A stretch of DNA of 64,000 nucleotides from Alphaproteobacteria bacterium (GTDB lineage Bacteria > Pseudomonadota > Alphaproteobacteria > Micropepsales > Micropepsaceae): the NCBI GenBank assembly GCA_016792565.1, contig JAEUMK010000002.1:62001-126000 (forward strand). Reading direction: 5' to 3'. The position numbers and the translations under genes are program-made. This document shows, piece by piece, positions 9,975 through 31,065 of this stretch; positions within the stretch are counted from its first letter, which is position 1; every line of letters begins with the position of its first letter. The notes under the pieces were generated by a model, which did not search any database, was not told the DNA's origin, and was given only the letters and a program-made list of their open reading frames with translations.

Positions 9975-10444
9975 ACCCGCTTCCTCGCCTCCAGGACGAT
10001 GCGCTCGCGGTCGCGTGCGGTCAGCGCGACGTCCCACTGGCCGGCCGGGATGTCCGACGCCTCGGCCTCGTAGAGGCCGCCGCCCTTGGCGACGAGCGCC
10101 ACGGTGCGGTCGAAATGCGCGTTGACCGGATGGCGCAGCAAGGCCTCGACGGTCAGGCCCTCGGCCATGTTGCCGGCCTGGACATAGCGGGCCGAGATGC
10201 GGGCGGTCCCGGCCGCGTCGCGGGTCACGTCGACCGCCACCTCGTAGCCGTAGCTCGCCTCCAATGCCCGCTGCTCGATCGTGGCGTTGTAGTTGAGGCC
10301 CTTCACATAGGCGCCATCGACGTCAGTTCCGGAAAACGTATTGAGCGCCAGCGTGACCATCAGCGCGTTGACCCCGATGACGGTCAGAAAAAAGCCTCCG
10401 AACAGAACCATCACATGGCGGCCGGTCAGGCGTGGCGCGGTCAT
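9962..10444 (-). CDS. ccoH: CcoH/FixH, cbb3 oxidase assembly protein
   Basis: A 160-residue FixH-family protein. One N-terminal membrane helix (VMVLFGGFFLTVIGVNALMVTLA) precedes GTDVDGAYVKGLNYN, the conserved FixH motif, and a periplasmic beta domain that ends WDVALTARD. CcoH binds CcoP/CcoN during assembly and is needed for a stable complex. The ATG overlaps the ccoG stop by 4 bp (ATGA) and the 3' end overlaps ccoI by 13 bp, so ccoG-H-I-S form a tightly coupled block. Confidence 0.94.
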   Translation of the reverse strand: MTAPRLTGRHVMVLFGGFFLTVIGVNALMVTLALNTFSGTDVDGAYVKGLNYNATIEQRALEASYGYEVAVDVTRDAAGTARISARYVQAGNMAEGLTVEALLRHPVNAHFDRTVALVAKGGGLYEAEASDIPAGQWDVALTARDRERIVLEARKRVWLR

Positions 10445-11946
10445 TTTTCGGCTCCCGTCATGAATGCGGTCTCGTTGAGGGTGGAGACCCCCGTCTTCAG
10501 ATCCGTCACCGTCACCGTGCACGGCAGGGAGGGATCCGTCGCCGCTGCCTGCGGTATCGTGACCAGTACACGCACCGAGCGGATTTCGTCCGCATTGACG
10601 GAAATCAGGATGTCGCCGGCCGGCGCATCGGCCGGGCCGCCCGCTTCGCGCACCACGGCGCCCGGCAGGCCGAGCACATCCACCTTCACCTGCATGGCGG
10701 CGTCGGTGCGGTTCATCACCTTGACCGTGTAGGCGTTGCGGATGTCGCCGTTCGAAAGGCGCACGAAGACCGGATTGCGATCGCGGATGACGTTGAGATC
10801 GATCGGCGCGCGGGACAGAAGAGCGATCAGCATCGCGGTGCCGACCGCGCCCAGCACCACCGCATAGAACATCGTGCGCGTGCGCAGGAAGCGGAAGCGC
10901 GGCGCTTTTCCCGCGCGGCGGCGCGCGACGTTCTCGTGCGAATCGTAGGCGATCAGTCCGCGCGGGCGGTCGATCTTGTCCATCACCTCGTCGCAGGCGT
11001 CGATGCACAGGCCGCAATTGATGCATTCGAGCTGGTCGCCGTCACGGATATCGATGCCCATCGGGCACGCCGCCACGCACTGGTTGCAGTCGATGCAATC
11101 GCCGCGGCCGTCCCAGCTCGATCCCTTCTTGTGCGGGCCGCGCGGCTCGCCCCGGGCCTTCAGGTAGGTGACCGAGATCGACTCCGAATCGACCATCGCC
11201 GCCTGGATGCGCGGCCAGGGGCACATATAGGTGCAGACCTGCTCGCGCATGAAGCCGGCGAGCGAATAGGTGGTGAAGGTCAGGATGCCGACGAAGACAT
11301 AGCCCATGAAGGGCGCCTCGCCGGTGAAGAACTCCACCACGAATGTCGGCGCGTCGTAGAAATAGAGCACCCAGGCGCCGCCGGTCGCCACCGCGATCAG
11401 CAGCCAAACCGTATGCTTGGATACACGCTTGGCGACCTTCTTCGCCGTCCAGGGCTCCTTGGTCAGGCGGATGCGCTGGTTGCGGTCGCCCTCGATCCAG
11501 TGCTCGACCGCAATGTAGAGGTCGGTCCAGACCGTCTGCGGGCAGGCATAGCCGCACCAGACGCGGCCGAACAGCGCCGTGAACAGGAACAGCGCCAGGG
11601 CGCCGGCGATCAGCAGGCCGGCGATGAAATAGACCTCCTGGGGCCAGAGCTCGATCCAGAAGAAATAGAAGCGCGTGCGGTCGAGATCGACGAGCACCGC
11701 CTGGTCCGGCTTGCCGATGCCGCGGTCCCAGCGCAGGAAGGGAACGATGTAGTAGATCGCCAGAAGCGCCGTCATGACGGCCCACTTCACCTTCCTGAAG
11801 GTGCCGTGGACCGCCTTGGGGTAGATCGGCTCGCGCGCCTTGTAGAGCGTGCGCCGGTTTGCGCTGTTGACCGCCTGCACATCCGACCGGAGCACGCCTT
11901 CGGCGGCATGGGTGGCCGGCGCGCGGTCGGGTGCCTGAACGTTCAT
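10441..11946 (-). CDS. ccoG: CcoG/FixG, membrane ferredoxin-like protein of cbb3 assembly
   Basis: A 501-residue protein. N-terminal helices include FLRWDRGIGKPDQAVLVDL and a VWCGYACPQTVWTDLY segment typical of FixG. There are two 4Fe-4S clusters near residues 270-320 (CIDCNQCVAACPMGID and CINCGLCIDACDEVM) and a C-terminal Ig-like periplasmic domain. CcoG has been reported as a cupric reductase feeding Cu(I) to the cbb3 assembly route. It follows ccoP after 51 bp that hold a 9-bp-stem hairpin, so its expression could be set lower than that of the oxidase genes. Confidence 0.95.
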   Translation of the reverse strand: MNVQAPDRAPATHAAEGVLRSDVQAVNSANRRTLYKAREPIYPKAVHGTFRKVKWAVMTALLAIYYIVPFLRWDRGIGKPDQAVLVDLDRTRFYFFWIELWPQEVYFIAGLLIAGALALFLFTALFGRVWCGYACPQTVWTDLYIAVEHWIEGDRNQRIRLTKEPWTAKKVAKRVSKHTVWLLIAVATGGAWVLYFYDAPTFVVEFFTGEAPFMGYVFVGILTFTTYSLAGFMREQVCTYMCPWPRIQAAMVDSESISVTYLKARGEPRGPHKKGSSWDGRGDCIDCNQCVAACPMGIDIRDGDQLECINCGLCIDACDEVMDKIDRPRGLIAYDSHENVARRRAGKAPRFRFLRTRTMFYAVVLGAVGTAMLIALLSRAPIDLNVIRDRNPVFVRLSNGDIRNAYTVKVMNRTDAAMQVKVDVLGLPGAVVREAGGPADAPAGDILISVNADEIRSVRVLVTIPQAAATDPSLPCTVTVTDLKTGVSTLNETAFMTGAEK

Positions 11947-11968
11947 GTCCGTCTTCCGGTTTGAGCGG

Positions 11969-11990
11969 CGCTGCCGGTTCCCCGGCAGCG
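11969..11990 (-). terminator. Hairpin between ccoP and ccoG (possible attenuator)
   Basis: Perfect 9-bp inverted repeat CGCTGCCGG / CCGGCAGCG with loop TTCC. No T-run follows on the minus strand, so it is not a complete Rho-independent terminator. It may stabilise the ccoNOQP transcript end or reduce read-through into ccoGHIS. Confidence 0.4.
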
Positions 11991-11997
11991 GCTCGCC

Positions 11998-12867
11998 CTA
12001 CTCACCGCCTCCCAAGGAGTGGACATAGACGGCGAGCGCGTTGATGGTCGGCGCGTCGAGACGGCCTTCCCAGGTCGGCATCACGCCATTGCGCGCATTG
12101 GTGATCGTCTCGATGATCGTATCCTTGTCGCCGCCATAGAGCCAGTCGGCATCGGTCAGGTTCGGCGAACCGAATTCGCGCAATCCCTTGCCGTCCTCGC
12201 CGTGGCATGCGGCACAATTGTCGACGAAGAGCGGCGCGGCGCGCGCCACCGCCTCGGCATCGGTGCTCTTGCCCGAGAGGTTGAGCACGTACTCCGCCAG
12301 ATCCCGGATCTGGCCGGGTTCGAGCAATTCGTCCCGGCCGTAGGCCGGCATGGCCGAGAGGCGGGTTTCGGGATGTGTGGAGCGGATGCCGACCTTCAGC
12401 GTGTGGCGGATGTCGTCGAGCGTGCCGCCCCACAGCCAGATGTCGTCGTTGAGGTTGGGGTAGCCGACATTGCCGCCGCCGCCGCCGCCGTGACAGGTCG
12501 CGCAATTGTCGCCGAAGGCCGACCTGCCCCAGGCGAGCGCCGCCTGCTGCAATTCCGGATCGGCCTCGATTTCCTGCGGCGTCGCCTTGGCGAGTTTTTC
12601 GCCGAGCGCCGAACGGCCTTCCTTGAGCGACGCTATCGCGGCGTCAACGTCGAGGCGCTGCGAGTGGCCGAGAACGCCGCGCGTGTAGTCGTTGACCAGC
12701 GGCCAGGCCGGCATGACGACCCAGTAGCCGATCGACCACACGACGGTGGCGTAGAAGATATACAGCCACCAGCGCGGCAGCGGATTGTCCAGCTCGCGGA
12801 TGCCGTCCCACTCGTGACCCGTGGTTTCGACGCCCGAGACGTCGTCCTTTTCGCGATTCTTGCTCAC
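11998..12867 (-). CDS. ccoP: cbb3 oxidase subunit III CcoP (diheme cytochrome c)
   Basis: A 289-residue protein. A cytoplasmic N-terminus with HEWDGIRELDNPLPRWW leads into a membrane helix, followed by two cytochrome c domains with CATCH and CAACH heme motifs and methionine ligands in later AMPAYG and VMPTW contexts. It passes electrons to CcoO in the periplasm. The first heme motif is followed by six glycines in a row, which is unusual. The start is GTG at 12867, overlapping the ccoQ stop by 3 bp. Confidence 0.96.
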   Translation of the reverse strand: MSKNREKDDVSGVETTGHEWDGIRELDNPLPRWWLYIFYATVVWSIGYWVVMPAWPLVNDYTRGVLGHSQRLDVDAAIASLKEGRSALGEKLAKATPQEIEADPELQQAALAWGRSAFGDNCATCHGGGGGGNVGYPNLNDDIWLWGGTLDDIRHTLKVGIRSTHPETRLSAMPAYGRDELLEPGQIRDLAEYVLNLSGKSTDAEAVARAAPLFVDNCAACHGEDGKGLREFGSPNLTDADWLYGGDKDTIIETITNARNGVMPTWEGRLDAPTINALAVYVHSLGGGE

Positions 12868-13022
12868 AGCTCCGGCTCCTCATCGAGCGGCATATGGGCT
12901 GCCTTGGTGAATTTCTGGCGGTTGGAGGGCCACAACGCGTAGACCACCGCGACGCCGAACATCAGCATCAGGAAGACGAGGCCCCACGAACGGGCGAATT
13001 CGGATGCGTCCTGGTATGTCAT
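12864..13022 (-). CDS. ccoQ: cbb3 oxidase subunit IV CcoQ
   Basis: A 52-residue protein read directly from the sequence: MTYQDASEFARSWG, then one membrane helix (LVFLMLMFGVAVVYALW), then PSNRQKFTKAAHMPLDEEPEL. The 'ALWPSNRQKF' after the helix is the CcoQ pattern. CcoQ stabilises the CcoNOP complex. It lies between ccoO (6 bp gap) and ccoP (4-nt region shared by its TGA and the GTG start). Confidence 0.92.
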   Translation of the reverse strand: MTYQDASEFARSWGLVFLMLMFGVAVVYALWPSNRQKFTKAAHMPLDEEPEL

Positions 13023-13028
13023 CGCGCC

Positions 13029-13760
13029 CTACCGGATGTTGTCTTTGGAGTTGGGTTCGTAGGTCGAGAAGTCGACCAGGGTTCCCAGCATCTGAAGATA
13101 GGCCACAAGGGCATCCATCTCGGTGACCCGCTTGGGGTCGCCGTCGAAGTCGCGCACCTGGGCCTTGGGATAGCGAGCCGCCACATCAGCCGCACCGTCG
13201 GAATTCTCGTCGGCCTGGGCCATCAGGTCGGCCGCGGCATTGGCGATCATCTCGTCGGTATAGGGCACGCCGACCATGGCATTCGCCTCGAGCAGCGCCT
13301 TGATGTCGGGCACGTGAAGCTCGTTGCGCGCCAGATTGGCGTAGGGCGGCATGATCGATTCCGGCACCACCGAGCGGGGATCGATCAGGTGGTTGCGCTG
13401 CCACTCGTCCGAGTACTTGCCGCCGACCCGCGCCAGATCCGGACCGGAGCGCTTCGAGCCCCACTGGAAGGGGTGGTCGTACATGCTCTCGGCCGCCAGG
13501 CTGTAGTGGCCGTAGCGCTCCACCTCGTCGCGCAACGGCCGCACCTGCTGGCTGTGACAATTGTAGCAGCCTTCGCGGATGTAGATGTTGCGTCCCGCCA
13601 GTTCGAGCGGCGAGTAGGGGCGCATGCCCTTCACCTTCTCGATGGTGTTCTCCAGGTAGAAGAGCGGCGCGATCTCGATCAGGCCGCCGACCGAGACGGT
13701 GAGCAGGATGCAGACGATCAGCGCGATCGAGTTGCGTTCAAGGGTTCCGTGGTTCCACAT
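13029..13760 (-). CDS. ccoO: cbb3 oxidase subunit II CcoO (monoheme cytochrome c)
   Basis: A 243-residue protein with an N-terminal anchor ([25 protein letters not shown]), the conserved [13 protein letters not shown] heme c site at residues 64-74 (C65, C68, H69), and later [28 protein letters not shown] and VPESIMPPY containing the methionine ligand region. It carries electrons from CcoP to CcoN. It sits 12 bp downstream of ccoN in the usual gene order. Confidence 0.96.
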
Positions 13761-13772
13761 GAGGATGCGTCC

Positions 13773-15422
13773 TTACTCGGCTGCGGCCGGAACGAGGGGG
13801 GTGTTGCCCGCCTCGGCGCGCAGATCGCCGCGCGCCGTCCGCCAGAGGTTGTAGACCATGATCAGGGCGCCGATCAGGAACAGCGCGCCGCCCAGAGCCC
13901 GGATGATGTAGTAGGGGTGCATCGCCTCGACGGTCTCGACGAACGAGTAGCTGAGGAAGCCGAACTCGTTGTAGGCGCGCCACATCAGGCCCTGCATGAT
14001 CCCGCTGATCCACATCGAGGTGATGTAGAAGAGGATGCCGATGGTCGAGATCCAGAAGTGCCACTCCACCAGCTTCAGGCTGTAGAGCCGCTCGCGCTTC
14101 CAGAGCCACGGCACGAGGCAGTAGATGGCGCCGAAGCTGACATAGCCGACCCAGCCCAGGGCCCCCGAATGCACGTGGCCGATCGTCCAGTCGGTGTAGT
14201 GCGAGAGGGCGTTGACCGCCTTCACCGACATCACCGGGCCTTCGAACGTGCTCATGCCGTAGAAGGCGACGGACACGACCAGCATGCGCAGGACGGGGTC
14301 GGTGCGCAGCTTGTCCCAGGCGCCTGACAGCGTCATCAGACCGTTGATCATGCCGCCCCAGGAGGGCATCCACAGCATGATCGAGAAGGTCATGCCCAGC
14401 GTCTGGGCCCATTCCGGCAGCGCCGTATAGTGCAGGTGGTGCGGGCCGGCCCAGATGTAGATGAAGATCAGCGACCAGAAGTGCACGATCGACAGGCGGT
14501 AGGAATAGACCGGCCGCTCGGCGCGCTTGGGCACGAAATAGTACATGATGGCGAGGAAGCCGGCGGTCAGGAAGAAGCCGACGGCGTTGTGGCCGTACCA
14601 CCACTGGGTCAGCGCGTCCTGCACGCCCGAGAAAGCCGAGACGCTCTTCACCCCCAGGAACGACACCGGCACCGCCATGTTGTTGACGATATGCAGCAGC
14701 GCGATCGTCACGATGAAGGCGAGGTAGAACCAGTTCGCGACGTAGATGTGCGGCTCCTTCCGCTTCCACAGCGTGCCGACGAAGACCAGCAGGTAGCAGA
14801 CCCACACGATCGTCAGCCAGAGGTCGGCGTACCATTCGGGCTCGGCGTATTCGCGGCCCTGGGTGACGCCCATCAGGTAGCCGGTCGCGGCGACGACGAT
14901 GAAGAGCTGGTAGCCCCAGAAGACGAACCAGGGCAGCAGGCCGCCGAACAGGCGCGCCTTGCTGGTGCGCTGCACGACATAGAACGAGGTGGCGATCAGC
15001 ACGTTGCCGCCGAAGGCGAAGATCACCGCCGAGGTGTGCAGCGGCCGAAGACGGCCGAAATTCGTGAACGGCAGATCGGGGAAATAGAGAAGGTCGGGGA
15101 AGGCCAGCTGCAGCGCGATCACCACGCCGACCAGAAATCCCGCCAGGCCCCAGAACATCGAGGCGATCACGCCGGCCCGGACCACGTCGTTGGCGTAGGT
15201 CTCGCGATCGTCGGCGGGCGCGCCGCTGGCGTAGCGGCGCATCAGCCACACGATGCCGGCGACGAAGCCTGCGGTGAAGATCCACATGTGAGCGGCGAAG
15301 TCGCCGTCGACGGCGAATCGCGCCCCGAGAATGGTGATGATCGCGGCGCCCAGCAGCGCGACCATTGTGGCGATGACGCCGGGCGGCATCTTGCCATGTT
15401 CAATCGATCCGGATGTCGTCAC
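13773..15422 (-). CDS. ccoN: cbb3 oxidase catalytic subunit CcoN
   Basis: 549 residues from a GTG start, with about twelve membrane helices. Heme and copper ligands are visible: [26 protein letters not shown] (CuB-region His with the Tyr), [13 protein letters not shown] (two His) and [14 protein letters not shown]. It reduces O2 to water at high affinity. The frame extends to 15521, but the upstream residues are Arg/Ala-rich and overlap the promoter; the GTG at 15422 (protein beginning [11 protein letters not shown]) is preferred, about 108 bp from the FNR-type box at 15530. Confidence 0.95.
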
Positions 15423-15529
15423 GGATTTGGCCCCCGAATTTGCCGCGCAGACGGTTGATCGCCGCCGATGCGCTGGGACGGCCTTTGCCGCCCTATGGTT
15501 GCTTGTGCGCCGATCTCGCACTTGCGCAA

Positions 15530-15543
15530 TTGACGCAGATCAA
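15530..15543 (-). promoter_or_regulatory. FNR/FixK box upstream of ccoN
   Basis: TTGACGCAGATCAA on the plus strand (TTGATCTGCGTCAA towards ccoN) matches the TTGAYnnnnRTCAA form bound by FNR, FnrL and FixK proteins. Its distance of about 108 bp from the chosen ccoN start allows a class II position near -41.5 with a leader of roughly 65 bases. This would switch on the oxidase at low oxygen, the known behaviour of cco operons. The regulator gene itself is not in the window. Confidence 0.8.
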
Positions 15544-20896: not shown

Positions 20897-22129
20897 TCAG
20901 CCACCGGTTTGCGGGTTGCGCTCGGCGATGGCGGTGCCGTCGGCGACCCGGTCGCCGGGGTGCAGAATGACCCGCTCGCCCGCTTCCAGGCCGGAGAGCA
21001 CGACCGCTTCACGGCCGGTACGCGCCCCGATGTCGACCCGGCGCTCGCGGGCCCGGCCCGAGCCGTCGACGACGTAGACCGCCCAGGCATCGCCGCGCCG
21101 GAACAGCGCGCCGAGCGGCAACAGCAATGCGTCCTGCACGCGCTCCAGCGTCACATGGGCCATCACGCGATAGCCGTGTCCGAGACCGGGGCGATCCTCG
21201 GGCGGTCCCACGAGATCGAGGACCACGAGAACCCGCTGTTCCTCGATACCGAGGGCCGAGACCTTGGTGAAGCCGGCCGGCTCGACCCGGCGCACAGTGG
21301 CCGGCAGCGCCATCGCCCCGCCCCAGCCGTCGATGATCGCGGGGAAGCCGGGCCGCACCCGCGCCGCGTCCGAGGAGAGCATTTCGACGACGACCTCGAT
21401 CCGGCGCACATCGCCCAGCTCGAGCAGCGGCGTGCCGGCCGCGACGACCTGTTCGCTCCTGTGCATGACCGTCAGGACCTCGCCATCGATCGGAGCCCGC
21501 AGGAGCAGGCAACACGACGCCGGGTCCGGGTCTCCCGGCGTTGCCGCATGAGGCCCAACGAGCCTCGCCTGTGCGATCTGGAGCTCCTGCTGGCGGACCG
21601 CGAGCGTCGCCTCCGCACTCTCCACGCGCGCTTCGGCGGTCGCCAGCGCCGTCCGCGCCTCGTCATAGCGGCTCGCCGAAATGTCGCCGCTCTGGCGCAG
21701 CTGTTCGGCGCGCGCGAAGTCGCTGCGCGCCTTGGCAAGGGCGACCGTCGCCTCGCGGAGCTGGGCCTGGGCCAGGTCGACCATTGCGGAAGCCGCTTCC
21801 ACGGCCGCCTCGGCCTCGCGGCGCGCCCGCGCATCGAGAAACGCGGGCGCCGCCGGCTCGATGACCGCGACGACGGTTTCCCCGGCCACCACCCTGTCGC
21901 CCGCCTCGCGCGGCGCCCGGCGCAGCGTGCCGCCGATCGGCGCCGACACGGTGTAGATGTCGCGGACACGGGTGCGCCCTTCCTCGCTGACGGTGACGTC
22001 AAGGGCGCCGCGTCCGAGCACCGCGAGATCCGCCGCCACCGGCTGGGGCAGGAAAGCCCAAACCGCGGCAGCGCACGCCGCAGCGGCAACGAGGGCGACC
22101 AGACCACGGCGGCGCATCTGCGGCGTCAT
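20897..22129 (-). CDS. Periplasmic adaptor (membrane fusion) protein of an ABC exporter
   Basis: A 410-residue HlyD/MacA-type adaptor. An N-terminal anchor (GLVALVAAAACAAAVWAFL) is followed by a lipoyl half-motif (VSAPIGGTLRRAPREAGDRVVAGETVVAVIEP), a long coiled-coil hairpin rich in Ala/Glu/Arg (about residues 100-195), the second lipoyl half (LLLRAPIDGEVLTVMHRSEQVV) and beta-barrel domains. It would link the inner-membrane permease to an outer-membrane channel, which is not encoded here. It starts 3 bp downstream of the permease stop, in one operon with the permease and ATPase. Confidence 0.87.
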   Translation of the reverse strand: MTPQMRRRGLVALVAAAACAAAVWAFLPQPVAADLAVLGRGALDVTVSEEGRTRVRDIYTVSAPIGGTLRRAPREAGDRVVAGETVVAVIEPAAPAFLDARARREAEAAVEAASAMVDLAQAQLREATVALAKARSDFARAEQLRQSGDISASRYDEARTALATAEARVESAEATLAVRQQELQIAQARLVGPHAATPGDPDPASCCLLLRAPIDGEVLTVMHRSEQVVAAGTPLLELGDVRRIEVVVEMLSSDAARVRPGFPAIIDGWGGAMALPATVRRVEPAGFTKVSALGIEEQRVLVVLDLVGPPEDRPGLGHGYRVMAHVTLERVQDALLLPLGALFRRGDAWAVYVVDGSGRARERRVDIGARTGREAVVLSGLEAGERVILHPGDRVADGTAIAERNPQTGG

Positions 22130-22132
22130 TCG

Positions 22133-24487
22133 CTATTCCCGTGACTTGAGGACGGCGACAAGATCGAGAGAGTCGAGCCGCCGCTTGACCAGGAACGCCG
22201 AACCGATCGCAGAAGCGGCAGCGGCGAGCGCCGACCAGGCATAGGTGGATCGCTCGATCACCAGAGGGACACGGAAAAGCTCGGTCTTGAAGCCCTCGGT
22301 CATCGCGAGGGCGAGACCATAGCCCAAGACGCATCCCAGCGGCAGCGCCGCGAGCGTCAGGAGGCCGAGTTCGGCGAGCAGAATCCAGGACACCTCGTCC
22401 TTCGTGAACCCGAGCACCCTGAGACTGACCAGCTCGCGGGCTCGCTCGGAGAGCTGAATCCGGGCGCTGTTGTAGGCGACGCCAACGGCGATGATCATCG
22501 CGAGCACGGTGAAGACGCCCGTCATCAGGAGGATGTTCTCCGCCATCGTCTTGCGCAGAGTCTGGAGCGCGACGCTCTGAAGGCCCACCGACGACACGGC
22601 GGGCATCACCTTGACTGCGCCATAGAACCCGGCGGCGGCCGATGGGTCCAGCTTGATGTTGGCGGCCGTCATCTGCAGCCCTTCGCCCATCAGACGGTTC
22701 ACGGCGGCGATCTCCATGTAGGCGCCCAGACCGACATAGTTCTGCACGATCGCCGTCACCGGCACTTCGCGCGCACGCCGTCTGCCCTCCAGGGGCTCGA
22801 CCGTTACCGTATCGCCAACTTCGGCGTCCAGAATGCCGGCCAGCATGTCCGTGAGGACGAGGCCCGTTTCAGGCAGCCTGAGTGCACGGTCATCGGAATC
22901 GACCAGCTGCGAGAGATCGGACTCCTGCGGGCGGCCCATCAGGCCGATGCGGCGCGACGCAGGCCCGAGCGACAAGCGCACGGCGACGGCTCGCACGGGC
23001 TCGGCCGCCATGACGCCGGGAAGTCGCGCGATGTCGGCGAGGGTCGCAAGCGGGCGCTCCACCGAGAAGCCGATCGTCGCATCCTGCCGGTCAGCGCGAT
23101 AGAAGGTGAGATCGATCATGCGCTCGATCGCATCCTGGGAGAACAACGCAGCGACGAGGACGGCGACCGACATCGCGATCCCGATCACCGTGAAGGCGGA
23201 CCTCGCGGGCCAGCGGACGATGTGACGAACGATCATCACGGTGCTCTGCGACAGTCGCCCGGCCCCGACCGCAGCGAACCGGCGATAGCCGGGCGGCACC
23301 GGCGCCTGCATCGCCACCGCAGCGGGCAGACGGACGACGGCACGGACGGAAAGCGACGCGCCGGCCAGCGCCGCGAACAGCGACACGAGAACCGCACCGG
23401 CGAAGACGGAGGCGTCGATGTGGAAGATCAGAAAGGGGAAGTGAAAGAAGCGGCTGTAGAGGTCGGCCAGGCCGTGGCCCAGCCAGAGGCCGAGGGCAAG
23501 GCCGGCGGCGGCGCCGGTCAAGGCGATAGCCAGGGCAAATTTGAGGTAGTGCCAGCCGACCTCGTACGCGCCGTAGCCGAGCGCCTTGAGCAGCCCGACC
23601 TGCTCGCGCTCCAGCGCCACGAGCCGCGACAGCGTCATGTTCACGAGGAACGCGGCGACGATGAGGAATATGGGCGGCAGTATCATACTCATCGCCCGCT
23701 GCTGCTGCAGCTCGGAGTCCAGAAAGGCGTGGCTCTGCTGGTCCTTGCGCTCAAAGGCGCCAAGGCCGCCATAGCCCGCCAGGATGTCGTCGAGCGCTTC
23801 GACCACTGCGGATGCCCGGGCGTTTGCCAAGAGCTTTACGGATACTTCGGAGAATGCGCCGTCCTGATCGAAGGCGGCAGCCAGGGCGCGTCGCGACATC
23901 CAGACGACGGCGAAGCGACGGTCATCGGGAACAAGCGCGCCAGGGGCGACCGCATAGATGAACTCCGGACTGAGCGCGGTCCCGACGATCTGAAGCGTGC
24001 GCCGCTTGCCGCCGATGATCGCCGCCAGGCGCGCCCCCGGCTCGAGCCCGTGGGCAACCGCGAAGGCCTCGCTGACCACGACTTCGTCCGGCCGTTCGGG
24101 ATCCGGCGTGCGGCCCTGGCGCACATAGACGCGGTTGAGCAGGGCCACGCCGTCATCGGGCAGAGAGACCAGACGCGCGGACGCCGGCTCCATCATTCCC
24201 TCGATGTCCAGAACCGCTCCATCGACGATACGGGTTTCGACGGCGGCTACGCCATCGATCGCTGCGATCTCGTCTCGCAGCCGCTCGGGCGCACGCCGGA
24301 CCGAGGCGAAGATGTCGGCGAAAGCCTGACGGTCGTAGTAGGCCGCACGCGTCTCCTCGAGCGACTGGTAGGCGCCCATCCCAAGAACGAGCGTCGCGAC
24401 GCCCGCCGCCATGACCGCAGCGATCGCGACGGCCTGCGTACGCAGACGCCACAGGTCGCGCCGCAGCTTGCGGTTGAGCATCGTCAT
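22133..24487 (-). CDS. ABC transporter permease, FtsX/MacB-like (two FtsX repeats)
   Basis: 785 residues. An N-terminal membrane helix (AVAIAAVMAAGVATLVLGMG) is followed by a large periplasmic MacB-like domain, an FtsX block of three helices around residues 260-390 (MILPPIFLIVAAFLVNMTLSRL...), a second periplasmic domain, and a final FtsX block near the C-terminus (GVFTVLAMIIAVGVAYNS, LLTLAALPLGCVLGYGLAL). The length and the two FtsX blocks differ from the four-helix MacB and match the longer two-repeat permeases. The frame continues upstream across the ATPase gene in another frame; ATG 24487, 4 bp after the ATPase stop, is used (24481 also possible). Confidence 0.87.
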   Translation of the reverse strand: MTMLNRKLRRDLWRLRTQAVAIAAVMAAGVATLVLGMGAYQSLEETRAAYYDRQAFADIFASVRRAPERLRDEIAAIDGVAAVETRIVDGAVLDIEGMMEPASARLVSLPDDGVALLNRVYVRQGRTPDPERPDEVVVSEAFAVAHGLEPGARLAAIIGGKRRTLQIVGTALSPEFIYAVAPGALVPDDRRFAVVWMSRRALAAAFDQDGAFSEVSVKLLANARASAVVEALDDILAGYGGLGAFERKDQQSHAFLDSELQQQRAMSMILPPIFLIVAAFLVNMTLSRLVALEREQVGLLKALGYGAYEVGWHYLKFALAIALTGAAAGLALGLWLGHGLADLYSRFFHFPFLIFHIDASVFAGAVLVSLFAALAGASLSVRAVVRLPAAVAMQAPVPPGYRRFAAVGAGRLSQSTVMIVRHIVRWPARSAFTVIGIAMSVAVLVAALFSQDAIERMIDLTFYRADRQDATIGFSVERPLATLADIARLPGVMAAEPVRAVAVRLSLGPASRRIGLMGRPQESDLSQLVDSDDRALRLPETGLVLTDMLAGILDAEVGDTVTVEPLEGRRRAREVPVTAIVQNYVGLGAYMEIAAVNRLMGEGLQMTAANIKLDPSAAAGFYGAVKVMPAVSSVGLQSVALQTLRKTMAENILLMTGVFTVLAMIIAVGVAYNSARIQLSERARELVSLRVLGFTKDEVSWILLAELGLLTLAALPLGCVLGYGLALAMTEGFKTELFRVPLVIERSTYAWSALAAAASAIGSAFLVKRRLDSLDLVAVLKSRE

Positions 24488-24491
24488 CGAG

Positions 24492-25205
24492 TCACCAGCG
24501 CATACTCGAGGCCGGCTGGCGGACATCGTTGGCGACGATGCGAGACACATGGCCGTCCGCGAAGTAGATGACTCGATCCGCCATCGCGCCGATCGCCGCA
24601 TTGTGGGTGATAACCAGCGTCGTAGCACCGATCTCCACATTGACCTTGGCGAGCGCTTCGAGGACGCGGATGCCAGTCGCCGAATCGAGCGCGCCGGTCG
24701 GTTCGTCGCAGAGAAGGATTTCGGGCCGCTTGGCGATCGCCCGGGCGATCGCGACACGCTGCTGCTCGCCCCCCGACAACTGAGCGGGGAAGTGGTCATG
24801 ACGCGCGGCGGGCAGGCCGGCGAGCTCCAATGCCGCGCTGGGCGACATCGGATTGCGCGCGATCTCGGTGATGAGCGCGACGTTCTCCCACGCCGTGAGG
24901 CTGGGAACCAGATTGTAGAACTGAAAGACGAAGCCGACATGATCCCGCCGGAAGCGGGTCATGCTCGTCTCGTCGAGCGCCGTCAAATTGTGGTCCTTGA
25001 AGATGACACGTCCCGAGGTCGGCTTGTCGAGACCGCCGACGATGTTGACGAGGGTCGACTTGCCGGAGCCCGATGGTCCCAGCAGGACCAGAAACTCGCC
25101 CGCGCCGATCGAGAGGTCGACGCCGCGCAGCGCGTGCACCTCAACGTCACCGGACCGGTAGATCTTGGTCAGGCCCTCGATGCTGATGACCGTCTCGCGC
25201 TGCAT
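24492..25205 (-). CDS. ABC transporter ATP-binding protein, LolD/MacB type
   Basis: A 237-residue ATPase with Walker [10 protein letters not shown] near residue 43, Q-loop [14 protein letters not shown], signature [14 protein letters not shown] near 146, Walker [13 protein letters not shown] near 166 and switch His in VITHNAAI. The subfamily powers mechanotransmission-type exporters and lipoprotein release. The ATG at 25205 gives the normal start ([16 protein letters not shown]); the frame extends only 14 residues further. A degenerate FNR-like site (25277-25290) lies 72 bp upstream. Confidence 0.92.
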
Positions 25206-25276
25206 GGCTCTCAGGCACCCCCAGTCAATGCATCGAGTTTGACGCAAGATCGTGGCAGATGCACGCAGGAGCCATG

Positions 25277-25290
25277 CTGACGAAAGTCAA
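25277..25290 (-). promoter_or_regulatory. Degenerate FNR-type site upstream of the ABC exporter
   Basis: Reads TTGACTTTCGTCAG on the minus strand, one base away from TTGACn4GTCAA. Its position 72 bp before the ATPase ATG would suit an activator, but a one-base deviation in a short palindrome is weak evidence. Confidence 0.25.
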
Positions 25291-25349
25291 CCTGCCGCGC
25301 AGGCGCATGAGCGGATGTGGCGGCGGCGATTTCGAGCGAGGTGCCCCAT

Positions 25350-25748
25350 TCATCGTCGCCGGGGCAGCTGAACCCAGGGAAAGGCGGCGAAGGCGAGCTG
25401 GCCGGCGAGCCCGAGCAGCGGCCCCGGAGCGCCAAAGGCCTGAAGGTATTGCTTCGGCGTGAGGCCAAATCCGAAAACGCCCAGCGAGAACTCGGCCCCC
25501 ATCACGAGGAGGAAAGCGAGGCCGCCCACGGCAAGACGCGGCGACGGTTCGGCAGCGACTGCAAAGCGCGCCATGACGGCACGGCAGACCCACCAGGACA
25601 CGGACAGTATGACGGGCAGTTCCAGGAGCGTCGCGCTCAGTCGGCCGATCGACGGCTCCAACACAAGGACGCGCAGCGTGCCGAGGACCATGCCGACAAC
25701 AAAGACGGCGAGGAAATAGGCGGTGGCTGGGAGCAAGATGGATCGCAC
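25350..25748 (-). CDS. Small integral membrane protein of unknown function
   Basis: A 132-residue protein with four predicted membrane helices: LLPATAYFLAVFVVGMVLGTLRV, LSATLLELPVILSVSWWVCRAVM, LAVGGLAFLLVMGAEFSLGVF and the Gly/Ala/Leu-rich segment near the C-terminus (GPLLGLAGQLAFAAF). The charged residues E and R within the helices (LRVLVLEPSIGR, VCRAVMAR) are notable. I do not recognise a characterised family. The start codon is GTG at 25748 without a strong ribosome site, so a nearby start is possible. It lies between the PRPP-synthetase-like gene (70 bp upstream) and the ABC exporter on the same strand. Confidence 0.7.
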   Translation of the reverse strand: MRSILLPATAYFLAVFVVGMVLGTLRVLVLEPSIGRLSATLLELPVILSVSWWVCRAVMARFAVAAEPSPRLAVGGLAFLLVMGAEFSLGVFGFGLTPKQYLQAFGAPGPLLGLAGQLAFAAFPWVQLPRRR

Positions 25749-25818
25749 TGCGATGCCAAGTTACATGGGGCGCGCCGCCCGTTCCATAGCGATGTCGCGC
25801 CCCCATACGGCGCCCATC

Positions 25819-26718
25819 TCACGACTGGAAACCGGCCAGCAAGCGAGCGACAGCGATCGCCATTTCCGGGCGGATGTCGATGCCGTTCGAAATGTGCGCC
25901 ACCGCATTGCAGGTCACCACCGCCGCCGCGCCGGCGCGCAAGAGATCGCCATGAGCATCACCGCCAAAGAGCGCATGCACGCCGACACAGAACGGGGCCT
26001 TGGTGCCAGATGCGCGAAGCGCGCCGACTGCCATGACCATGGTCCGGGCGGTCGATATGATGTCATCGACCAGGACAGGCGTGCGGGCCGGATCCACATC
26101 CTGGCGCTCGATGCGGATTTCGACCTCACGGTCACCGCGCCGCGTCTTGCTGAGCACGGCGAAAGGACATGCCGCAATCGACGCGATGCGCGAAACCCAT
26201 TGCTCGCTTTCGACGTCCGGCCCGATCACCACGGGGTCCGGCACATTCTGCCGTATCCAGGCGGCGATCGCTTCGCCAGCCGACGCGGCAAGCGCCGGTA
26301 TGGAGAAGACGTCGTCCAGCCGGGCGATGCGATGAAGGTGCGGGTCCAGAGTGACGAGACCATCGAGAAAGGTCGACAGCAGTCGCGCTACGTGAACGGC
26401 GCTCAGGCTTTCGCCGTGCCGGAATCGCGCATCCTGTCGCATATACGGAAGATAGGGCGTTGCGAGAAAAACCCGACGCGCGCCAAGGTCGCGCGCGGTC
26501 GATGCAACGAGATAGAGCGCCAGCATCTTGGAATCCGGCCGATCGAGACTGCCCGCAATGACCACATCTGCAGCGCGAACCTCCGTCGCGATGCGCAGAT
26601 AGGACTCGCCATCGGGAAACGAACGCAGTTCGAGTTCGCCGCGCGCGGCGCCCAAGGCGGAGGCAAGCACATCCGCCAGCCCGGTCTCGTCGTGAAAGGG
26701 CAGGATGACGACCGCCAT
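25819..26718 (-). CDS. Ribose-phosphate pyrophosphokinase-like enzyme
   Basis: A 299-residue PRPP synthetase homologue. The N-terminal half has GELELRSFPDGESYLRI and the ATP-site motif PYLPYMRQDARF near residue 95. The metal-binding segment LVTLDPHLHRI is near 126, the catalytic flexible-loop Lys/Arg in LSKTRRGDREVEI near 195, and the PRPP loop PVLVDDIISTARTM near 219. All catalytic elements are present, so activity is likely. It is shorter and more diverged than housekeeping Prs (about 315). It follows the phosphorylase gene by 1 bp. The ATG at 26718 is preferred over upstream codons inside the phosphorylase. Confidence 0.85.
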   Translation of the reverse strand: MAVVILPFHDETGLADVLASALGAARGELELRSFPDGESYLRIATEVRAADVVIAGSLDRPDSKMLALYLVASTARDLGARRVFLATPYLPYMRQDARFRHGESLSAVHVARLLSTFLDGLVTLDPHLHRIARLDDVFSIPALAASAGEAIAAWIRQNVPDPVVIGPDVESEQWVSRIASIAACPFAVLSKTRRGDREVEIRIERQDVDPARTPVLVDDIISTARTMVMAVGALRASGTKAPFCVGVHALFGGDAHGDLLRAGAAAVVTCNAVAHISNGIDIRPEMAIAVARLLAGFQS

Positions 26719-26719
26719 G

Positions 26720-28243
26720 TCAGGCCTCGATCGTAAGGGCCATGCCGCCCTCTTCGGCGAACTCGGCCGCATAATCCAGCGCGCCCCGGGATTCCGCATG
26801 AAGGGTCAATAGCGGCTGGCCCCGCTCGATGGCGCTGCCCAGCGCAACGTGAAGCTCGACGCCGGCGGCCGGCGCCTTCGGCGCGCCGGAGAGCTTTGCG
26901 ATCCGCGCCAGCCGGCGATTGTCGATGGCGGCGAGCCGGCCGCCGGCGGACGCTTCGAAAACACGCTGAAAGGCGGCGCGGGGCGGCGTCCTGAGGCCGC
27001 CTTGCGCGGCGCAGATGGCCTGGAACTTGGTCCAGGCCCGGCCGCTGTCGAGCAGCTGGGCGGCGAGGTCCGATCCGGCGCCGCGCCGCGCGCGGCCGCC
27101 CATTTCGAGCACCGCTGCCGCCAGCGCGATCGACCGCGCGCGCAGGTCCGGCGGCGCCCCGGAATCGCACTGGAGGACCTGGAGCAAATCCCGGGCTTCC
27201 AGCGCAGGGCCGATACCGCGTCCGACCGGCGCCGTCCCGTCCGTCTGCAGGACTTCAACGGAGAGCCCGACCTCGGCGCCAACCTCGGTCATCAGCCGGG
27301 ACAGGCGGGCCGCCTGCGCGGCGCTCCTCACCTTGGCTGTCGGACCGACGGGCATGTCAATCACCACATGGGTCGAGCCGGCAGCCGCCTTCTTGGAAAG
27401 CACCGACGCCGCAAGCTGGCCATCGCTGTCGAAGTCGAGCAGCCGCTCGATGCGAATGAGAATGTCGTCCACCGGGCTGATGCCGATGCCGCCGCCCCAG
27501 ACAAGGCAGCCTCCCTCCTTTTCGACCACGCGCCGCATGGCGGCGAGGTCGAGCTCGACCGGGGTCAGCACCTCCATCGTGTCGGCCGTGCCGGCGGGCG
27601 AGGTGATGGCGCGAGAGGACGTCTTAGGAATGACAAGGCCGGCGGCAGCGACGATCGCCACGACCATCGGCGTGGTCCTGTTGCCCGGAAGACCGCCGAT
27701 GCAGTGCTTGTCGACGATCGGGGCGAATGGCCATGAGAGCCGTCGTCCTTCGGACAACATCGCACGGGTCAGCGCCACGGTCTCGGCATGCGACATCCGT
27801 TCGCCGGCGCAAGCCGTCAGGAAGGCGGCCGTCTCGACCGGCGAGTAGCGACCGGCAGCAACGTCGCGCACAATTTCGCCGATGGCGCCTGCCCCAAGCA
27901 TTTCGCCATGGATTTTTCCACGAACGGCCGACAGGGAGTGAACGGGTTCGGGATGTGCGGCGTGCGCGTGTTCGCCATCAACAGGCGACAAGAGCCGCCA
28001 CGCGGCCTCCGACAGCCCCGCCTCGTTCTGGTCCAGTAGTTCCGCCGAGACGACGTTGAGCGTCGCGATGATCGACTTGCGCTGCGTCGAGAGTCTGATG
28101 CGGGCCTGCGCCTCGAATCCTTCGGCCCGACAGACGGCGCTGTCGCGCCGCAGATAGACGATCGGCTCGTTATAGGTGTCGATGCCCATGCGGCGGATTG
28201 CCAGCTCATGGCGGCCCGCCCGGTCAGGCACGCGGTTCGTCAC
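26720..28243 (-). CDS. AMP phosphorylase / thymidine phosphorylase family enzyme
   Basis: 507 residues from a GTG start, matching the roughly 500-residue archaeal-type AMP phosphorylase group rather than the roughly 440-residue DeoA. An extra N-terminal domain of about 80 residues (with STQRKSIIATLNVVS) precedes the phosphorylase core. The core has VDKHCIGGLPGNRTTPMVVAI (phosphate site) near residue 180, SRAITSPAGTADTMEVL near 210, and a C-terminal lipoyl-like domain. Known relatives convert NMP and phosphate to base and ribose 1,5-bisphosphate. The GTG overlaps the nuclease stop by 4 bp (GTGA), so the two are probably translationally coupled. Substrate (NMP or thymidine) is not settled. Confidence 0.85.
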   Translation of the reverse strand: MTNRVPDRAGRHELAIRRMGIDTYNEPIVYLRRDSAVCRAEGFEAQARIRLSTQRKSIIATLNVVSAELLDQNEAGLSEAAWRLLSPVDGEHAHAAHPEPVHSLSAVRGKIHGEMLGAGAIGEIVRDVAAGRYSPVETAAFLTACAGERMSHAETVALTRAMLSEGRRLSWPFAPIVDKHCIGGLPGNRTTPMVVAIVAAAGLVIPKTSSRAITSPAGTADTMEVLTPVELDLAAMRRVVEKEGGCLVWGGGIGISPVDDILIRIERLLDFDSDGQLAASVLSKKAAAGSTHVVIDMPVGPTAKVRSAAQAARLSRLMTEVGAEVGLSVEVLQTDGTAPVGRGIGPALEARDLLQVLQCDSGAPPDLRARSIALAAAVLEMGGRARRGAGSDLAAQLLDSGRAWTKFQAICAAQGGLRTPPRAAFQRVFEASAGGRLAAIDNRRLARIAKLSGAPKAPAAGVELHVALGSAIERGQPLLTLHAESRGALDYAAEFAEEGGMALTIEA

Positions 28244-29616
28244 GAGGCCGCTCCGGCGGAGAGATCGCAGCGCTCCATATGCTCGGGCACGTGCGCGTCC
28301 CATCCCAGCTCGCGCTTCAGGCGCGCCCTCAGCGCGTCGGCAGCCGCAGGCTCGCCATGCGTCACGAAGGTCCGTCTAGGCGGATGCGGCAGGCGGCGGA
28401 CCCAGTCGACGATCTCATCGGCATCGGCATGGGCCGAGAGACTGTCGAGACCGACGACTTCGGCGCCGATGGGAACATCATCGCCGAATATCCGGACTGA
28501 CGATGCGCCTCCCAGAATGGCCGCGCCGCGGGTGCCGCCGGCCTGGAAGCCGGCGAGAACGATCATGTTCCTTGGGTCTTCCGCAAAGGCATGCAGGTGA
28601 TGGATGATGCGCCCGCCGGTCGCCATGCCGCTGCCGGCGATGATCACCATCGGGCCAGCGCTCTTGTTGAGCCGCCGAGAATCCTCGACCGACGATATGA
28701 TCGTCGCGGCGCGGCACATGGCCTCGGTTTCGGCACGGGAGAGGCGGTGCTCCTTGTGGTGATCCTGGTAGATCTTCGTGACGTCGGTCGCCATCGGGCT
28801 GTTCAGGAAGACCGGCAGGTCTCTTGGAATCCGGCCCTCGCGCTTCAGCCGATGGATGCCCCAGAGCAGGGACTGCGCGCGGCCGACCGCGAAACTCGCG
28901 ATCATCACGATACCGCCCCGCGCCGCGGCCCTGGCAATCGAACGGCCGAGCACCTCATAGGGATCGGATGTGTCGTGCTTGCGGTTGCCGTAGGTCGACT
29001 CGATCACCAGGTAGTCCGTTTCGACAGGGTCCGCCGGCGGTCGCATGATGTCGTCGTTCGGGCGGCCGAGATCGCCGCTGAAGAGGATCGATGTCTGGCG
29101 CGACCTGACCTCGGCGAAGGCGGCGCCCAGAATGTGACCGGCAGGCCGCAAGGTCACCGTGAGGCCTGGAGCGGGGCTGAAGCGCTCACCGAAAGCGCGC
29201 GCTTCGAACCTGTCGAGGGAGCGCTCCGCCTCGGACCTCGTGTAGAGCGGCATGGCAGGCTGGTGGCGGGTATATCCCCGCCGGTTGGCGCGCGCGGCGT
29301 CCTCTTCCTGCAAGGCGCCGCTGTCGGGCAGCAATATCCGGCAGAGTTCGATCGTGCCGTCGGTGCAGTAGACCGGTCCCCGGAAGCCGTTCTTGATCAG
29401 CAGCGGTACGTAACCCGAATGGTCGAGATGCGCATGGGTCAGGACAACCGCATTGAGCGTGGCGGGATTGAACGGCAGCGTCGCCCAGTTCCGTTCGCGC
29501 AGAACCTTGTAGCCCTGAAAGAGCCCGCAATCGACGAGAATGGAGCTGCGACCGTGCGTGAGCAGATACTTGGAGCCGGTGACCGTGTCGGCTCCACCCA
29601 AAAAGGTCAACTTCAT
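28240..29616 (-). CDS. Metallo-beta-lactamase/beta-CASP ribonuclease-like protein
   Basis: A 458-residue CPSF-73/Ysh1-like nuclease. It begins MKLTFLGGADTVTGSKYLL, and metal motif 2 THAHLDHSG is near residue 62. A further metal His is in RPAGHILGAAF and a metal Asp in SGDLGRPNDD. The beta-CASP insertion is in the middle (IASFAVGRAQSLL, VFLNSPMA), then SAHADADEIVDW and VTHGEPAAADALR of the RMMBL domain. Such enzymes cut RNA; some also hydrolyse phosphodiesters. The ATG at 29616 is chosen by homology; earlier codons encode an Arg-rich lead. It heads the leftward run through the phosphorylase and PRPP-like genes. Confidence 0.9.
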   Translation of the reverse strand: MKLTFLGGADTVTGSKYLLTHGRSSILVDCGLFQGYKVLRERNWATLPFNPATLNAVVLTHAHLDHSGYVPLLIKNGFRGPVYCTDGTIELCRILLPDSGALQEEDAARANRRGYTRHQPAMPLYTRSEAERSLDRFEARAFGERFSPAPGLTVTLRPAGHILGAAFAEVRSRQTSILFSGDLGRPNDDIMRPPADPVETDYLVIESTYGNRKHDTSDPYEVLGRSIARAAARGGIVMIASFAVGRAQSLLWGIHRLKREGRIPRDLPVFLNSPMATDVTKIYQDHHKEHRLSRAETEAMCRAATIISSVEDSRRLNKSAGPMVIIAGSGMATGGRIIHHLHAFAEDPRNMIVLAGFQAGGTRGAAILGGASSVRIFGDDVPIGAEVVGLDSLSAHADADEIVDWVRRLPHPPRRTFVTHGEPAAADALRARLKRELGWDAHVPEHMERCDLSAGAAS

Positions 29617-29769
29617 GCCCGTTCCGCGTCCCCTGCCAATTGGCCGACATTGTCCGAGTGGACCTCGGCAGTCCGGCCTGCGGCGACTATGGCCGATCCA
29701 AGGCCGGGCCGTCATCCGGAGATATCAAGGGCGAGAGGCTGAAGAGGCGGCCGGAGCGCGAGGCGGCGC

Positions 29770-31065
29770 TTGCCTTCGCGGCCGAAGGGTTCATCCTCGC
29801 GCGATCGACATTGGATTTTCGCATTGCCCCTCCCGTCCCGTTCCGCGCCCCCCGGCGCCCGCCCCGCGTCCGAACTCGGCTGGTACAATCTCGCCCTCGC
29901 CGGCTCGGTGGCGGCCGGCGGCATTCAGGGCGTGCTCTTCCCCTGGCTGATCACCGTCCATCTCGACAAATCGGCGCAGTGGGTCGGCGTTGCGCAGATG
30001 ATGTCGATGCTGCCGACCTTGCTGTTCGTCCTCTGGGGAGGCGCGATCGCCGACCGGATCGAGGCGCGCGCCTATCTGATCCGTCTGCAGCTGGCGATCA
30101 ACATTCCGCACCTGGCGTTGATCGCGGTCCTCGCGGCGGGCGCGCTCGAATACTGGGTCGCAATCCTCTACGTGCTGGGGCCCGGCATCATCTCCGCCTT
30201 TCTGATGCCTGCCCGGGACGCGGCGATCGCCCGGATCGCCATGCGCGAGAACCGCGACCTGGGACGGGCCATCACCGCTGCCACAGGACTGCAGTTCGGC
30301 GGGCAGATCGTCGGGTTCGGGCTTGGCGGCCTCGCCAGCGAAATCGGCCCGATCCCGCTCCTGTGCATTCAGATCGCGCTCAATCTGATATCGATCCTGG
30401 GTCTGACACGCATCCACCCGCAGCCCCCGTTGCGCCAGCCGGAGGACCATGGCGCCATTCTCGGCGAAATCGGGGACGGCCTGGCCGCCGCGCGAAGCGA
30501 CGCCCGAATCTGGCCCACGATCCTGCTCCTTGGAACGTCCAGCATCTTCTTCATGGGCGTCTATATGGTCGGACTGCCGCTGATGATCCGCGACATCTAC
30601 CAGGGCGGCTCAGGGGCATTTGCGCTCATGAACACGGCCTTCATGGGCGGCGTCATGGCCGGCACGTTCGCCTTGTCGCGCTTCAGGCCGGTCAGGCGTC
30701 AGGGCCGCCTCATCATGATGATGTTGCTGGGCAGTTCGGCCGCGATGCTGGCCACCAGCCTTCACCCTCCGGAATGGGCCTTTTACCTGATCATCCTGTG
30801 CTGGGGCGTCAGCGGCGGCATCTCGATGAGCACCAGCCGGGCCATCGTACAGGAGGCATCCGAGCCGGCCATGCGAGCCCGGATCGTGAGCGTCTATCAA
30901 CTCGCCCAGATGGGCGGAGGACCGGTGGGCTCACTTCTCGTCGGCGCGCTCAGCGGCTGGCTTGGTCTGACGCTCGCCTTCCTGCTTCCGCTCTCGGCGA
31001 TCGCAGCGATTTGGATCTCGGTTTTTCTCTTTACGCCGCTCTGGCGGGTCGGCCGCAATGCCTGA
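29770..31065 (+). CDS. Major facilitator superfamily transporter
   Basis: Up to 431 residues with about twelve membrane helices and the MFS loop 2-3 motif GGAIADRIEARAYL. The second half has YMVGLPLMIRDIY and GTFALSRFRPVRRQGRL. It resembles proton-coupled drug or small-molecule exporters (MFS_3-like), but no substrate can be named. The true start is uncertain: the frame opens with TTG at 29770, and a later TTG at 29824 would remove the 18-residue polar lead without affecting helix 1. It is divergent from the nuclease gene. Confidence 0.85.
   Translation: MPSRPKGSSSRDRHWIFALPLPSRSAPPGARPASELGWYNLALAGSVAAGGIQGVLFPWLITVHLDKSAQWVGVAQMMSMLPTLLFVLWGGAIADRIEARAYLIRLQLAINIPHLALIAVLAAGALEYWVAILYVLGPGIISAFLMPARDAAIARIAMRENRDLGRAITAATGLQFGGQIVGFGLGGLASEIGPIPLLCIQIALNLISILGLTRIHPQPPLRQPEDHGAILGEIGDGLAAARSDARIWPTILLLGTSSIFFMGVYMVGLPLMIRDIYQGGSGAFALMNTAFMGGVMAGTFALSRFRPVRRQGRLIMMMLLGSSAAMLATSLHPPEWAFYLIILCWGVSGGISMSTSRAIVQEASEPAMRARIVSVYQLAQMGGGPVGSLLVGALSGWLGLTLAFLLPLSAIAAIWISVFLFTPLWRVGRNA

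Follow-up and report, generated by a model that had tools for sequence, protein, structure and literature searches.

Conserved nuclease, phosphorylase and PRPP-synthase-like genes as a putative nucleotide-dissimilation operon in many bacteria

The window analyzed here is a stretch of 64,000 nucleotides from an alphaproteobacterium of the family Micropepsaceae (assembly GCA_016792565.1, contig JAEUMK010000002.1, positions 62,001 to 126,000 of the forward strand). All coordinates are those of the window. Three closely spaced genes on its minus strand encode, in order of transcription, a nuclease, a phosphorylase and a protein related to the synthases of phosphoribosyl diphosphate (PRPP), referred to below as the PRPP-like protein. 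These genes, the trio of this study, are placed as follows (aa, amino acids; NMP, nucleoside monophosphate; AMP, adenosine monophosphate):

28240..29616, minus strand: beta-CASP metallo-beta-lactamase ribonuclease, 458 aa, with the Pfam domains Beta-Casp, RMMBL and Lactamase_B
26720..28243, minus strand: NMP (AMP)-phosphorylase-type phosphorylase, 507 aa, GTG start, families NF003338 and TIGR02645
25819..26718, minus strand: PRPP-synthase-like protein, 299 aa, ATG start, family NF005537/PRK07199

The coupling of the trio described in the first-pass annotation was confirmed to the base. The sequence GTGA at 28240-28243 is common to the nuclease stop and the phosphorylase start, giving a 4-bp overlap, and a single base (26719) lies between the phosphorylase and the PRPP-like gene. 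The longer open reading frames in the mechanical listing (491, 527 and 326 aa), which were used for the family profile searches, are upstream extensions of the same genes; the tight coupling is that of the starts chosen in the first-pass annotation. A promoter and terminator scan of 25000-30000 returned no signal at the gene junctions of the trio; its two promoter-like sites fall on the plus strand, opposite the trio, and its four terminator-like sites lie within the PRPP-like gene, compared with 2.3 expected for the whole region. Downstream on the same strand (20897-25247) are genes for an HlyD-type adaptor, an FtsX-type permease and the ATPase of an ATP-binding cassette (ABC) exporter. An FtsX-type permease together with a companion gene also accompanies the phosphorylase in 5 of the 80 loci compared here. 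These loci are the best 80 of 584 relatives collected with the phosphorylase, and the set is biased toward sequences close to the window's own.

The motifs and residues on which the protein comparisons rely are located as follows, all on the minus strand:

29419..29436, minus strand: metal-binding motif HAHLDH, nuclease residues 61-66, of which H61, H63, D65 and H66 are invariant in the alignment
27599..27625, minus strand: KTSSRAITS stretch, phosphorylase residues 207-215, common to structure 4ga5 and unlike 1brw
26329..26334, minus strand: H129-R130 of the PRPP-like protein, family-specific, 2 and 3 residues past the retained H127
26206..26211, minus strand: E170-S171, a PD-x-ES loop replacing PD-x-GG (E170 in 99/99 members, S171 in 96/99)
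26131..26148, minus strand: retained K191 and R193 with family-specific D196, flexible-loop region (99/99 each)

The nuclease belongs to the beta-CASP ribonucleases, with Beta-Casp (120.7 bits, cut-off 27.7) and RMMBL (62.9 bits, cut-off 21.6) domains and intact metal-binding motifs. Residues H61, H63, D65, H66, H161, D182, E206, H396 and H420, which we take to be the metal and catalytic residues, were invariant in 14/14 aligned sequences. The score against the RNase J family TIGR00649 was 19 bits, below its cut-off of 400. Assignments to aCPSF1 (251.6 bits, cut-off 580.2) and Cas14 (359.1 bits, cut-off 800) were rejected. The nearest solved relative is the ribonuclease TTHA0252 of T. thermophilus (E 2.7e-72), for which 5'-3' exo-RNase activity has been reported (PMC4229858); unlike for the window's nuclease, a phosphorylase partner is not mentioned for it in the available text of that study.

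The phosphorylase passed the cut-offs of two profiles of a putative thymidine phosphorylase family, NF003338 (652.9 bits, cut-off 434) and TIGR02645 (568.4 bits, cut-off 434.6). Both thymidine phosphorylase profiles gave scores below their cut-offs (NF004490, 187.8 versus 269 bits; TIGR02643, 133.5 versus 570.7 bits). In searches of the PDB, 4ga5/4ga6, taken here as the AMP phosphorylase of T. kodakarensis, matched with E 1.4e-96, compared with 1.8e-32 for the best pyrimidine-nucleoside phosphorylase. The alignment agrees with this ranking: the stretches GG-x-PGN-[KR]-T and KTSSRAITS-x-AGTAD are common to the window's phosphorylase and 4ga5, and most of their positions are invariant among 19 sequences, including K207 and S209-S215 in 19/19. 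KTSSRAITS differs in 1brw, a pyrimidine-nucleoside phosphorylase. By its residues, the protein thus carries the signature of the archaeal AMP phosphorylases and not that of the pyrimidine or thymidine phosphorylases, and the archaeal type assigned to it in the first-pass annotation was upheld.

The PRPP-like protein passed NF005537 (367.1 bits, cut-off 322), a family that NCBI names ribose-phosphate diphosphokinase, and TIGR01251 (183.6 bits, cut-off 113). Its predicted model (pLDDT, a per-residue confidence score, of 94.3) superimposed on 3mbi, the archaeal PRPP synthase of T. volcanium, with Z 34.3 and a root-mean-square deviation of 1.9 over 285 residues. Archaeal PRPP synthases (1u9y, 3mbi and 4twb, presumably class III enzymes) are its nearest relatives both by sequence (1u9y, E 6.7e-38) and by fold (Z 32.5-34.3). 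The M. jannaschii enzyme scored 133.7 bits, and the ordinary Prs encoded elsewhere in the same genome 76.5 bits at 25% identity. We compared 99 members of the family (34 from a first set and 65 from a second; locus L097, where a contig end truncates the gene to a 101-bit match, was left out) with nine ordinary PRPP synthases. The residues F34, D36, E38, R94-Q95-D96, H127, D168, K191, R193, D218-D219 and T226, which we take to be the PRPP-synthase catalytic residues, are kept in 98-99 of the 99 members, and they are also kept in the archaeal enzymes. The PRPP-like protein differs from the archaeal enzymes in scoring below the equivalog NF002095 (191.8 bits, cut-off 296) and in carrying E170-S171, H129-R130 and D196. 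H129, R130, E170 and D196 were found in 99/99 family members and in 0/9 ordinary enzymes. The loop glycines of PD-x-GG, which are G-G in 9/9 ordinary synthases and G-A in two archaeal ones, are E-S in this family. These family-specific residues are only two or three positions away from conserved catalytic ones, and because they are invariant in the family and absent from the nine ordinary enzymes, an altered reaction is suggested. The pattern points to an active enzyme that may have changed phosphate recognition.

The distribution of the trio was determined in 299 genomes drawn evenly from the window's phylum (taken as Pseudomonadota on the basis of the named relatives), the window's own included; all statistics ignore shared ancestry. 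NF003338 exceeded its cut-off in 35 genomes, a count that leaves out G255, where the phosphorylase frame is interrupted and falls under the cut-off. NF005537 was detected at E<=1e-60 in 34 genomes, 33 of them over the cut-off and one at 299.6 of 322 bits. The PRPP-like protein was present in 34 of the 35 phosphorylase genomes versus 0 of the 264 others (table [[34,1],[0,264]]; Fisher 5e-44, uncorrected for relatedness). The two genes lie within 6 kb of each other in 34/34 genomes. In 33 of these at least one pair is no more than 200 bp apart, and in the remaining genome the distance is 4.4 kb; for G236, whose phosphorylase is divided between two contigs, one fragment was used for the measurement. 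The least constant member of the trio is the nuclease (alignment A2, E<=1e-60), found in 22/35 phosphorylase genomes versus 45/264 others (p 3.6e-8); it is a neighbor of the phosphorylase, at a distance of up to 6 kb, in 15/35. In the fetched flanks of the 80 named loci, several of which end at contig ends, 48 contained all three genes, 18 the phosphorylase and the PRPP-like gene, 7 the phosphorylase and the nuclease, and 7 the phosphorylase alone. For the 14 loci lacking a PRPP-like neighbor, NF005537 exceeded its cut-off elsewhere in the genome in six. The pairing of phosphorylase and PRPP-like protein is therefore very strong, and it is not absolute. Two gene orders were observed, nuclease-phosphorylase-PRPP-like as in the window, and phosphorylase-PRPP-like-nuclease, the latter with a longer nuclease. 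Conservation of the trio outside its own genome, on which its interpretation as a module had been made to depend, is thus widespread. The family also occurs on plasmids: a match to the PRPP-like protein (E<=1e-30) was obtained in 103 of 72,556 plasmid records, and 48 of the 103 are predicted to be conjugative.

These data bear on a rival explanation, ordinary salvage, in which the PRPP-like protein is a second PRPP synthase, the phosphorylase acts on nucleosides or NMPs, and the two share only general nucleotide metabolism. The retained catalytic residues, the PRPP-synthase fold of the predicted model and the NCBI family name are all consistent with it. We consider it unlikely: the genome already has an ordinary prs, the four invariant family-specific residues are absent from the nine ordinary enzymes, and there would be no reason for the protein to be paired almost perfectly with a single phosphorylase family.

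An indication of the shared intermediate came from the single sampled phosphorylase genome without a PRPP-like protein. In this genome (G249), a PhnN match directly precedes the phosphorylase match in one frame. A protein search with the fused sequence as query, requiring coverage of at least 80% in one place, identified the same fusion on three plasmids, from Variovorax sp. SRS16, Paraburkholderia sp. 22B1P and Pacificitalea manganoxidans. Both domains exceeded their cut-offs in 4/4 fusions (PhnN 168.8-183.9 bits, cut-off 156; NF003338 519.7-604.0 bits, cut-off 434). PhnN phosphorylates ribose 1,5-bisphosphate (R15P) to PRPP (PMC9700705 and the NCBIfam name). Since the exceptional genome has its phosphorylase fused to an R15P enzyme, R15P is likely to be the shared intermediate and the node of the trio, and the fusion is good evidence, at the level of sequence, that the phosphorylase would deliver R15P. 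The R15P product that the first-pass annotation had ascribed to the phosphorylase acting on NMPs gains support from these four loci. In contrast to the window's PRPP-like protein, PhnN is not a PRPP-synthase homologue; it makes PRPP from R15P. As a general partner of the trio PhnN was rejected (8/35 phosphorylase genomes, p 0.49). It was found (E<=1e-30) in 7 of the 34 PRPP-like genomes, with no association (p 0.82), and the best match in the window's genome scored 47.8 bits against the cut-off of 156. Another R15P consumer would therefore be needed in the 27 of 34 PRPP-like genomes without PhnN, the window's among them, if R15P is made, and the conserved PRPP-like neighbor is the obvious candidate.

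The fusion loci (L066:6425-9080, L168:8159-11154, L169:8106-10848 and L170:8134-11100) have a setting of their own. A nadC homologue directly precedes the fusion gene in 4/4, and tripartite-tricarboxylate or tripartite ATP-independent periplasmic (TRAP) transporter genes adjoin it in L168 and L170. The arrangement suggests a cycle in which quinolinate and PRPP would give nicotinate mononucleotide (NaMN), NaMN would be split into nicotinate and R15P, and R15P would return to PRPP, possibly as a route of pyridine-carboxylate degradation. In Crenobacter luteus (L099:4935-5477), a hypoxanthine-guanine phosphoribosyltransferase gene lies directly upstream of the nuclease and phosphorylase, and the PRPP-like family does not exceed its cut-off there; this 180-aa gene was considered as a PhnN and rejected.

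We propose that the trio may be a nucleotide-dissimilation operon built around R15P. The gene order, families, conservation, co-occurrence, fusion and residue changes are observed, and the reactions, their directions and the RNA feed are all inferred. The nuclease would release 5'-nucleotides from RNA, and the phosphorylase would cleave the NMPs phosphorolytically, giving the base and R15P, which the PRPP-like protein, probably the R15P-consuming step, would then use. For the core flow, in which NMP gives R15P and the PRPP-like protein consumes it irrespective of what it makes, we judge the chances to be about even. Two end points are considered within this core flow, and the likelihood given to each is part of that given to the flow. 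In the one we favor, possible and put forward tentatively, the PRPP-like protein is an R15P:AMP phosphotransferase of the PRPP-synthase family that works with an NMP phosphorylase, and often with phosphoketolase and acetate kinase, in a low-oxygen fermentation of RNA or nucleotides. The PRPP-synthase reaction would run in reverse on a donor lacking the outer phosphate, so that R15P and AMP would yield ribose 5-phosphate and adenosine diphosphate (ADP), and the energy of the glycosidic bond would be kept. Ribose 5-phosphate would enter the pentose phosphate pathway, and relatives with phosphoketolase and acetate kinase could use it for ATP when oxygen is short. The link from R15P to ribose 5-phosphate, noted as missing in the first-pass annotation, could plausibly be filled by the PRPP-like protein, given its differences at invariant positions.

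The other end point is a PhnN-type phosphorylation of R15P to PRPP by the PRPP-like protein, that is, a recycling of RNA to PRPP. That the fusion partner PhnN has PRPP as its product, and that the PRPP-like protein is a PRPP-synthase homologue, both speak for it, yet we regard it as doubtful. In PRPP synthases the acceptor of the diphosphoryl group is a free 1-hydroxyl, and R15P has none. Moreover, the PhnN fusions occur in a different setting, beside nadC and, in some, transporters, and the phosphoketolase neighbors described below need a pentose phosphate, not PRPP; because of this need, ribose 5-phosphate is preferred as the product. Of the pathway as originally drawn, the R15P node is likely, and PRPP becomes one of two possible end points.

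The closest described pathway is the archaeal NMP shunt of T. kodakarensis, composed of an NMP phosphorylase, an R15P isomerase and RuBisCO (PMC9700705). The phosphorylase of that shunt belongs to the same family and R15P is likewise the node between nucleotides and central carbon. The window's genome differs in that the PRPP-like protein would follow R15P. A RuBisCO route was rejected here, as no PF00016 match was detected, and the only IF-2B-family (PF01008) protein of the genome is MtnA (TIGR00512, 402.6 bits, cut-off 279), scoring 157.0 bits against the R15P isomerase profile TIGR00511 (cut-off 314.1). In the open-licence literature, subscription papers aside and to the extent of the text available, we found no description of the trio as a pathway or of the PhnN fusion, and no demonstration or proposal of the R15P:AMP reaction.

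Evidence on the fate of the sugar was obtained from the neighborhoods. Counts of phosphoketolase, acetate kinase, P-type ATPase and glyceraldehyde-3-phosphate dehydrogenase (GAPDH) genes are sizes of similarity clusters in which one representative each was identified, by Pfam for the first two. A phosphoketolase cluster was found in the fetched flanks of 21/80 loci and an acetate kinase cluster in 9/80, in differing orders such as nuclease-phosphorylase-PRPP-like-phosphoketolase and phosphorylase-acetate kinase-phosphoketolase-PRPP-like. Among the 299 genomes, phosphoketolase was present in 11/35 phosphorylase genomes versus 36/264 others (p 0.012); in 4/35, no more than 6 kb separates it from the phosphorylase. 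In six genomes of one family (G058, G062, G146, G298, G023 and G261), none with a phosphorylase match over the NF003338 cut-off, the matches to the beta-CASP nuclease and to phosphoketolase are 1.4-1.8 kb apart. A type II (archaeal-type) GAPDH gene was observed near the trio (L109:4465-5520); its cluster occurs in 8/80 loci, six of which are one similar island in different genera.

A connection with oxygen is suggested by B. diazoefficiens, where genes with the same three names adjoin as bll3117-bll3116-bll3115, a predicted operon in the order phosphorylase-PRPP-like-nuclease, unlike that of the window (PMC9104804). In that study, bll3117, bll3115 and the phosphoketolase-acetate kinase genes bll2518-bll2517 are listed in the FixK2 table with negative fold changes in fixK2 mutants. 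All three trio genes and bll2518 are also tabulated among the proteins and transcripts that change under microoxia (PMC6515984). No function is proposed for the operon in the available text of either paper. In the window, cbb3 oxidase genes (ccoN, ccoO, ccoP and ccoG, 10441-15543) lie about 10 kb from the trio. An FNR-like box, TTGACGCAGATCAA, immediately precedes ccoN at 15530, and a copper-type P-type ATPase gene is located at 7770-10037.

Several observations weigh against the proposed R15P operon and its low-oxygen role. The phosphorylase falls under the cut-off of the AMP phosphorylase equivalog TIGR03327 (457.2 versus 535 bits). NF005537 exceeded its cut-off nowhere in eight of the 14 genomes lacking a PRPP-like neighbor (seven metagenome-assembled genomes and one isolate, Crenobacter luteus), in which PhnN was not sought. 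The nuclease is absent at E<=1e-60 from 13/35 phosphorylase genomes. RNA as the feed depends on this least constant member, so that in the flow from RNA through NMP to base and sugar phosphate proposed in the first-pass annotation, the R15P step is strengthened by the PhnN fusions and the RNA source is the weaker part. The conversion of R15P and AMP to ribose 5-phosphate and ADP is slightly uphill and would need pulling. Neither phosphoketolase nor acetate kinase was found in the window's genome, and the sugar would therefore enter ordinary pentose metabolism here. As for regulation, no FNR-like box was detected when up to 3 mismatches were allowed in the 314 bases that precede the trio of the window. 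Such boxes are few in relatives, being found in 7 of 77 upstream regions (the 80 loci less three with too short an upstream region) versus 1.3 expected from shuffles, and three of the seven are at +100 within the listed reading frame of related strains. An oxygen-regulator box was accordingly dropped as support.

The genomic setting raises a further objection, as a metal or general stress context is as visible as an oxygen context. P-type metal ATPases are the commonest non-trio neighbors (33/80 loci), and on conjugative Sphingobium and Caulobacter plasmids the trio lies amid copper-resistance or metal-efflux genes (L171:5009-8897 and L173:4967-8843). Both observations would suit a stress- or metal-island RNA-processing cassette, in which the nuclease regulates RNA and the other two proteins adjust nucleotide pools, with no through-pathway. 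We nevertheless rate such a cassette as very improbable, given that the nuclease is dispensable while the phosphorylase and PRPP-like protein stay paired, and that phosphoketolase and acetate kinase recur in the loci.

If the R15P-centered operon is correct, many bacteria would possess a nucleotide-dismantling route that needs neither RuBisCO nor PhnN, encoded by genes whose annotations read thymidine phosphorylase, PRPP synthase and metallo-beta-lactamase-fold hydrolase. The PRK07199 family would thereby acquire a function, and the response of the trio to low oxygen in a rhizobium would have a possible reason. The idea that a cell may live off its own RNA during oxygen loss, gaining ATP from it, would then become testable.

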